A stretch of 64,000 nt of DNA from Candidatus Thalassarchaeaceae archaeon (GTDB taxonomy: Archaea > Thermoplasmatota > Poseidoniia > Poseidoniales > Thalassarchaeaceae): assembly GCA_943841885.1 (NCBI GenBank), contig CALSZZ010000001.1:1-64000 (forward strand), read 5' to 3'. The notes below the pieces were generated by a model. That model worked only from the letters and a program-made list of their open reading frames with translations, was not told where the DNA came from and searched no databases. The translations under genes and the position numbers were made by a program. Shown one piece after another: positions 51,827 to 53,334 of the stretch (positions within the stretch are counted from its first letter, which is position 1; each line of letters opens with the position of its first letter).

Positions 51827-52105
51827 TCAACTAAAATGCTCGCTAAATCTCCCCTCACTCATTGCACTCAATGCTTCCTTTGGTCGCATTCCTTCTACAC
51901 TAACTCTCATAGATACACACGTTCCCATTACTTCACGACATCTCGCATACAGAGTAGAACCAGTCAAACGATCCTTTTGTTTCTCTGCTATTTGCTTAAC
52001 TTGATCCATTGTCAAGTTTTCAGTAGAAGCTTCCCAAGACCCATTACACTTCTTAACGCCAAGTGTCTGATTCACCACATGGGGTGTTTCATTTCTATCT
52101 GACAT
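51827..52105 (-). CDS. rpl11: ribosomal protein L11, C-terminal RNA-binding domain only
   Basis: TLGVKKCNGSWEASTENLTMDQVKQIAEKQKDRLTGSTLYARCREVMGTCVSMRVSVEGMRPKEALSAM matches the L11 C-terminal domain; the N-terminal PPLGPALGPLGI-type domain is absent; operon position is that of rpl11. Confidence 0.85.
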   Translation of the reverse strand: MSDRNETPHVVNQTLGVKKCNGSWEASTENLTMDQVKQIAEKQKDRLTGSTLYARCREVMGTCVSMRVSVEGMRPKEALSAMSEGRFSEHFS

Positions 52106-52190: not shown

Positions 52191-53057
52191 TTATTCAACT
52201 CTTTGTGTAACTCTAACTTGATCTGCTCTAACAGTTAATGCAACAGGAACAGCAGCTTCGAATAACTCAACCGTGACTTCTTCTTTCGATTCAGTAACAC
52301 GTATTACACGTGCATTTTGACCCCTAAATGCTCCTCCAACAATTTCACACAGGCTACCTTCTTCAATTCCAGAGGTTGCAGCCTTGGGCTCCAAGTAAGG
52401 CAATACATCTTCAAGTGGTGATTCACCTGGTAATACCTTTCTACAATTCTTAAGTGGAGTAACTCCAATTCCCACTCTTCCAATTAACTTTTCAACATGA
52501 TGTAAAGCAGACGCTTCGACAAAAATATATCCTCTCATAAAATGCGGATTTAGTACTCCAAATATTTCGTCTTGAATATCTAGTAATGAACCAGTTCCAG
52601 AAAGTCTTGCTCTAATTTCTTTAGCAACATTTTGCTCTTGACCTATTGAAGTTTTTAGAATGTAGAGATAAGATGCAACATCTCCATACATTTCTGTTAG
52701 CTTAGGTGTTGAATATTCTTTTTCTTTGATTCTTCCAGGATCTACCCATTCACTATTTTTGTATAGTGTACCTGGAACTACATTATCTGTTTTACATATA
52801 CATAGAATGGGAGTAACATCATTTAATCTATTACCGTATTCTAAACCACGTGCAGTACCTGTACGTACGAATTCAAAATCATCTTGTGATATTCCTGTGC
52901 ACTCTTCAATTCTTTTTGCAACGGAATCTAAGTCTTCAGGATTTCCTAATCCATAAATTCCATCCCATGCTCCTGGAAAATCAGAAACCCCGTCAGCCCT
53001 TTGCATTAGGAGTACTTTTTCTTCATTTCTTAAATAAACTGTAAATGACTCAGACAT
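52191..53057 (-). CDS. spt5: transcription elongation factor Spt5/NusG with N-terminal Nudix-like extension
   Basis: C-terminal NGN+KOW (YLYILKTSIGQEQNVAKEIRARL...HFMRGYIFVEA...GSLCEIVGGAFRGQNARVIRV); N-terminal KVLLMQRADGVSDFPGAWDGIYGLGNPEDLDSVAKRIEECTGI. Confidence 0.88.
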   Translation of the reverse strand: MSESFTVYLRNEEKVLLMQRADGVSDFPGAWDGIYGLGNPEDLDSVAKRIEECTGISQDDFEFVRTGTARGLEYGNRLNDVTPILCICKTDNVVPGTLYKNSEWVDPGRIKEKEYSTPKLTEMYGDVASYLYILKTSIGQEQNVAKEIRARLSGTGSLLDIQDEIFGVLNPHFMRGYIFVEASALHHVEKLIGRVGIGVTPLKNCRKVLPGESPLEDVLPYLEPKAATSGIEEGSLCEIVGGAFRGQNARVIRVTESKEEVTVELFEAAVPVALTVRADQVRVTQRVE

Positions 53058-53067
53058 ATTTTACACC

Positions 53068-53334
53068 TCATGCTCCTGTTAACCAATCAAAAAATACTGG
53101 AAAAACGTTATTCATCATTGCTTGAACTACGAAACCAAATAATCCTAAAATGAACATACCAATTCCGCAAACAATCATGGTTTGTCTGAATTGAGCTTTT
53201 GTTGGCTTACGTGCCATCTTCAAGATTCTTGCATATGAGCCGGTTTGTAAACTCCTAACTCTACTCTCGATATCGTCCTGAACATCTTGGACTTTCTCTT
53301 CGAATTTACTAACTTTGGAATTTTCGACACTCAT
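53068..53334 (-). CDS. secE: preprotein translocase subunit SecE (Sec61 gamma)
   Basis: RILKMARKPTKAQFRQTMIVCGIGMFILGLFGFVVQ; position between ftsZ and spt5. Confidence 0.88.
   Translation of the reverse strand: MSVENSKVSKFEEKVQDVQDDIESRVRSLQTGSYARILKMARKPTKAQFRQTMIVCGIGMFILGLFGFVVQAMMNNVFPVFFDWLTGA

Follow-up and report, generated by a model that had tools for sequence, protein, structure and literature searches.

What are some 128 additional residues doing at the N terminus of an archaeal Spt5? Among transcription factors, NusG/Spt5 alone is described as universally conserved, and the usual account of the archaeal protein is an NGN domain followed by a KOW motif. The spt5 gene examined here, from a Candidatus Thalassarchaeaceae archaeon (order Poseidoniales, phylum Thermoplasmatota), encodes a longer protein. 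It lies in a 64,000-nucleotide stretch of contig CALSZZ010000001.1 (assembly GCA_943841885.1, positions 1 to 64,000), hereafter called the window, and its genome is labeled G000. An original prediction made from the window alone read the extra residues as a degenerate Nudix domain fused to the elongation factor. We asked whether this domain has the Nudix fold, whether the fusion is genuine and what such a domain could contribute to Spt5.

The domain ahead of NGN

The C-terminal part of the protein belongs to Spt5, with residues 132-286 scoring 115.2 bits against the NCBIfam model TIGR00405 (equivalog cutoff 69.95). The preceding domain of about 128 residues runs into NGN without a long linker. 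When the N-terminal 129 residues were searched alone, the Pfam NUDIX family (PF00293) was matched at E 0.0042, which is under the Pfam cutoff, and 17 of 28 fused homologues matched the same family with a best E of 3.1e-6. Profile-profile comparison aligned the domain with an archaeal Nudix family over 114 columns at 99.2% probability (E 2e-19). An AlphaFold model of the isolated domain, built from fused proteins only, showed Nudix topology with a mean predicted local distance difference test score (pLDDT) of 90.9, and a model of the full-length protein reproduced this domain, with NGN and KOW after it. In a fold search, the top Protein Data Bank (PDB) matches listed were all Nudix proteins, the best being a MutT protein from Methanosarcina (3grn, TM-score 0.82). 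Searching PDB sequences with the domain profile gave weak Nudix matches at E 0.03 or worse, and the link to PDB entries therefore rests on the fold search. Together, these results indicate that the N-terminal domain is almost certainly Nudix by descent as well as by fold. Structure prediction, a route by which the Nudix assignment might have been overturned, yielded the Nudix fold.

We then compared residues at the former active site across 112 distinct fused proteins from both sampled families of Poseidoniales. Nudix enzymes carry the motif GX5EX7REUXEEXGU with its catalytic glutamates, and the Spt5 domain does not. Residue 49, which corresponds to the glutamate of RE, is arginine in 111 proteins and glutamate in none. 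Residue 53, the second glutamate of EE, is cysteine in the window protein and cysteine, serine, alanine, valine or threonine across the set, again never glutamate. The glutamate at residue 52 is kept in 101 proteins, the window protein included, and the GX5E part of the box lacks its glutamate. A DWE motif that is invariant in 14 aligned standalone relatives is replaced at the equivalent positions in all fused copies, and the next position is tyrosine in 112 of 112 fused proteins as opposed to histidine in most relatives. The eroded box described in the original prediction is thus a property of every fused protein in the set. We rejected the idea that erosion is confined to the lineage of the window, because both families are affected. 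By the defining motif, the Spt5 domain is Nudix in fold and outside the enzyme class, and from these residues it is predicted to be catalytically dead, with no hydrolysis of nucleoside diphosphate derivatives, in every copy examined.

Distribution, selection and origin of the fusion

The full-length protein was matched in 289 of 340 genomes of the class. A scan of sampled genomes for the N-terminal domain found it in 40 of 40 genomes of Candidatus Thalassarchaeaceae (f1) and in 40 of 42 genomes of a second family (f2), inferred to be Poseidoniaceae. Of the two f2 genomes without a match, G098 has its gene cut by a contig end, and G158 yielded only a 46-residue fragment of the gene. Loss of the domain within the order was also considered. 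Among the incomplete matches checked, those in G098, G059, G174 and G154 begin where a contig ends. The others comprise the G158 fragment, parts of the N-terminal domain close to the end of a contig (G156) and a protein in two pieces (G027). An assembly fusion or contig error was likewise rejected, because over 100 independent genomes encode the two domains as one protein. The fusion is therefore genuine, and the doubt raised with the original prediction on this point has been removed.

Judged from codon substitutions, the fused domain is under purifying selection. The median ratio of nonsynonymous to synonymous substitution rates (dN/dS) was 0.069 for the Nudix domain versus 0.015 for NGN-KOW, with precision limited by saturation (median dS about 1.4). 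Arg20, Trp31, Asp32, Gly33, Thr54, Tyr99 and Trp104 are invariant in the 112 proteins, and Asp106, like Arg49, is present in all but one. Asp32, Arg49 and Tyr99 are newly conserved in the fused domain. These values bear on the possibility that the domain is a passenger, drifting without an important function. Its evolution is faster than that of the Spt5 body and both its length and its linker vary, as expected of a passenger, but a dN/dS of about 0.07, the invariant residues and the presence of the domain throughout the sampled families make this explanation very improbable.

In a tree with the 14 standalone relatives, the fused proteins clustered together (support 100/100). The simplest reading is that the fusion took place once, in the ancestor of Poseidoniales. 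In a neighboring family of the class (f3), probably Marine Group III, Spt5 has a short acidic tail and then NGN, with no Nudix domain, and in genera g24 and g25 of this family Nudix is encoded by a gene of its own. Copies from g25 are about 165 residues long and retain an intact box, GFVEPGEEPLETSQREVEEETGI. Homologues with the two domains in separate genes had been named as grounds for suspecting an assembly fusion; such genes exist in f3, but they represent the unfused state and not an assembly error. A profile of the standalone relatives identified the fused Spt5 as its best match in G000 (2.5e-17; next listed 4e-9). The same profile matched the standalone copy of g25 genomes at 1e-53 or better, scores that are raised by construction because three g25/f3 sequences are in or near the profile. 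These results are consistent with the domain having been transferred onto Spt5 in the ancestral Poseidoniales lineage, but do not prove which copy was its source.

Several of the archaeal Nudix relatives show a fusion of their own, in which an AcnX_swivel (DUF126) domain precedes the archaeal Nudix domain (L188 by Pfam; L186, L187, L189, L195, L196 and L197 by reading). AcnX_swivel corresponds to the phosphomevalonate dehydratase small subunit, a link that would connect that Nudix family with the mevalonate pathway.

Spt5 is also extended elsewhere in Thermoplasmatota. Families f6, f17, f24, f27, f30, f35, f37 and f38 have an Spt5 with another kind of N-terminal extension, about 130 residues long and ending directly at NGN, although the match in f6 is weak. 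It carries the pattern PEWxV ... APKGARxxD (L230-L247), matched no named family in a Pfam search and is suspected to be a beta-sandwich. Common ancestry with the Nudix domain is not supported, as hhalign gave a probability of 0.1%. Unrelated domains have thus joined the Spt5 N terminus at least twice. The expectation that archaeal Spt5 normally consists of NGN and KOW only, which accompanied the original prediction, holds for the remaining families, where Spt5 is plain, but fails for those Thermoplasmatota that carry another N-terminal domain.

The spt5 gene and its neighbors

The features of the locus are collected in Table 1. The gene is preceded by ftsZ and secE and followed by the genes for uL11, L1 and L10, with ftsZ, L1 and L10 identified by reading translations.

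Table 1. Coordinates of spt5, its domains and adjacent genes within the window.
Feature	Position	Strand	Evidence
spt5 gene, 288 residues (pseudo-Nudix, NGN and KOW)	52191..53057	-	Open reading frame, Pfam, NCBIfam, full-length model
N-terminal Nudix-fold domain, residues 1-128	52674..53057	-	Profile comparison, Pfam, AlphaFold, fold search
Eroded Nudix box, residues 36-56, GLGNPEDLDSVAKRIEECTGI	52890..52952	-	Alignment of fused proteins
Arg49 codon, in place of the RE glutamate of the Nudix box	52911..52913	-	Residue counts, 112 proteins
NGN domain, residues 131-218	52404..52667	-	Pfam (E 1.8e-10)
KOW motif, residues 234-264	52266..52358	-	Pfam (E 3.8e-5)
secE, directly upstream of spt5	53068..53334	-	
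uL11 gene without N-terminal domain, directly downstream of spt5	51827..52105	-	

Two alternative accounts of the gene were considered. A separate Spt5 might start internally at Met123, but the codon varies among the fused proteins (ATG in 98 of 112, TTG in 6, CTC, TTA or CTA in 8), and the internal start is therefore not conserved. The Nudix domain might instead replace the Spt5 partner Spt4. G000 encodes Spt4 (PF06093, E 3.2e-11), and across the class 298 of 332 genomes, G000 among them, have an Spt4 match over the cutoff. Because Spt4 is kept, replacement was rejected, and the Nudix domain has been added to Spt5 without displacing its partner.

Spt5 proteins of f2 (for example L145 and L157) have an insertion in the NGN region, GGRDPxARRGLN, that is absent from f1. 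The next gene along also departs from the usual form in the clade that has the fused Spt5. Poseidoniales uL11 lacks its whole N-terminal domain and retains only the RNA-binding C-terminal part, 92 residues in the window (further examples L064, L141, L145, L157 and L159; contrast L161 and L165). The N-terminal domain (PF03946) was detected in none of 71 Poseidoniales genomes, compared with 8 of 8 genomes of the sister family f3 and 14 of 14 control genomes.

Possible roles and known systems

We consider it about an even chance (roughly 0.5) that the domain is a non-enzymatic docking or protein-binding module on RNA polymerase. We favor this role because the catalytic and DWE motifs have been lost and because another fold takes the same position in other lineages. 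In the termination complex of Thermococcus kodakarensis, NGN is bound to both large subunits of RNA polymerase and also meets the non-template DNA lying upstream of the bubble, and KOW contacts FttA (PMC11616081). A Nudix domain tethered closely to NGN would be placed on the polymerase beside the upstream non-template DNA. There, it would probably strengthen the binding of Spt4/5 to the elongation complex or recruit a partner protein, through a contact surface that may have formed anew around the former active site (Asp32, Arg49, Tyr99, Trp104 and Asp106). Domain II of Thermotoga maritima NusG provides a precedent for an added domain that stabilizes binding to RNA polymerase (PMC7819879). Several points weigh against a docking role. 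No interaction partner was identified, and the Nudix domain has an evolutionary rate about 4.5 times that of the Spt5 body, which may mean a small interface. The conserved arginine and aromatic residues would be compatible with an anionic ligand or RNA as well. Finally, the full-length model has a predicted template modeling score (pTM) of 0.63 and does not fix the placement of the Nudix domain relative to NGN.

The same residues raise the possibility of a nucleic-acid-binding module resembling CFIm25 (NUDT21), in which the dead Nudix domain would bind nascent RNA or upstream DNA and guide pausing or FttA-dependent 3'-end formation. CFIm25 is itself a catalytically dead Nudix protein that still binds RNA and nucleotides (PMC3695940). 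The position of the domain would be suitable, given that NGN adjoins the upstream non-template DNA and KOW meets FttA at the RNA exit (PMC11616081), and Arg20 and Arg49 are conserved as described above. The fold matches listed, however, revealed no specific similarity to CFIm25, generic Nudix hydrolases being the best, and we regard this alternative as unlikely. Still less probable is a small-molecule sensor, as proposed with the original prediction and comparable to NrtR, in which a nucleoside triphosphate, NAD, ADP-ribose or a similar ligand would alter Spt5 activity. NrtR lacks hydrolytic activity and still responds to ADP-ribose (PMC6800001), Nudix folds are ligand-binding folds, and several positions surrounding the former active site are conserved in Spt5. 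But the changes extend beyond the catalytic glutamates to the DWE motif in all copies, and other lineages have an unrelated domain at this end of Spt5, a sign that fold chemistry is beside the point. Nucleotide or cap sensing is accordingly unsupported and weakened as a reading.

A broader and tentative suggestion is that Spt5 serves as a lineage-specific regulated hub in Poseidoniales, with the dead Nudix domain binding nascent RNA or a metabolite and controlling elongation, FttA-dependent termination or coupling to translation. We hold this to be possible though doubtful. If true, the fusion would be part of a wider trend in Thermoplasmatota, in which unrelated domains have been added to the Spt5 N terminus.

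A literature search found no description of an archaeal Spt5-Nudix protein, but its coverage was without most subscription journals and preprints and an earlier account is possible. A single paper contains both terms, in passages that have no connection with each other. A 2026 domain survey of elongation factors and a review of NusG make no mention of Nudix. A whole marine archaeal order carries a third Spt5 domain of clear enzymatic ancestry, and a different one occurs elsewhere in the phylum. This sets Poseidoniales Spt5 apart from the laboratory models and offers a well-delimited case in which to study the acquisition of new contacts by a universal factor.

Among known proteins, the archaeal standalone Nudix and Nudix-AcnX_swivel proteins (alignment A4, L186-L197; L180 and L181 from f3) share with the Spt5 domain the homologous core of about 114 columns, an LLxxR...W start and a WxxP end. 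They differ in keeping the REUxEE glutamates and DWE, both of which the Spt5 domain has lost. NrtR also ties a Nudix domain to transcription control without hydrolysis, which is predicted here, but its Nudix domain is followed by a helix-turn-helix, whereas the C-terminal part of Spt5 is NGN-KOW, an elongation factor. CFIm25, which binds UGUA RNA as a partner in the CFIm complex, likewise connects a dead Nudix domain with transcript processing, though as a stand-alone eukaryotic protein that is not joined to Spt5. Thermotoga maritima NusG has an extra domain on a NusG/Spt5 protein, but by its description in the literature domain II is a different one. Finally, the Poseidoniales protein resembles the archaeal Spt5 of Pyrococcus furiosus and T. 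kodakarensis (TIGR00405) in its NGN domain, its KOW motif, the presence of an Spt4 partner in the genome and its setting between secE and ribosomal protein genes, and is distinguished from them by the additional N-terminal residues that form a Nudix fold.
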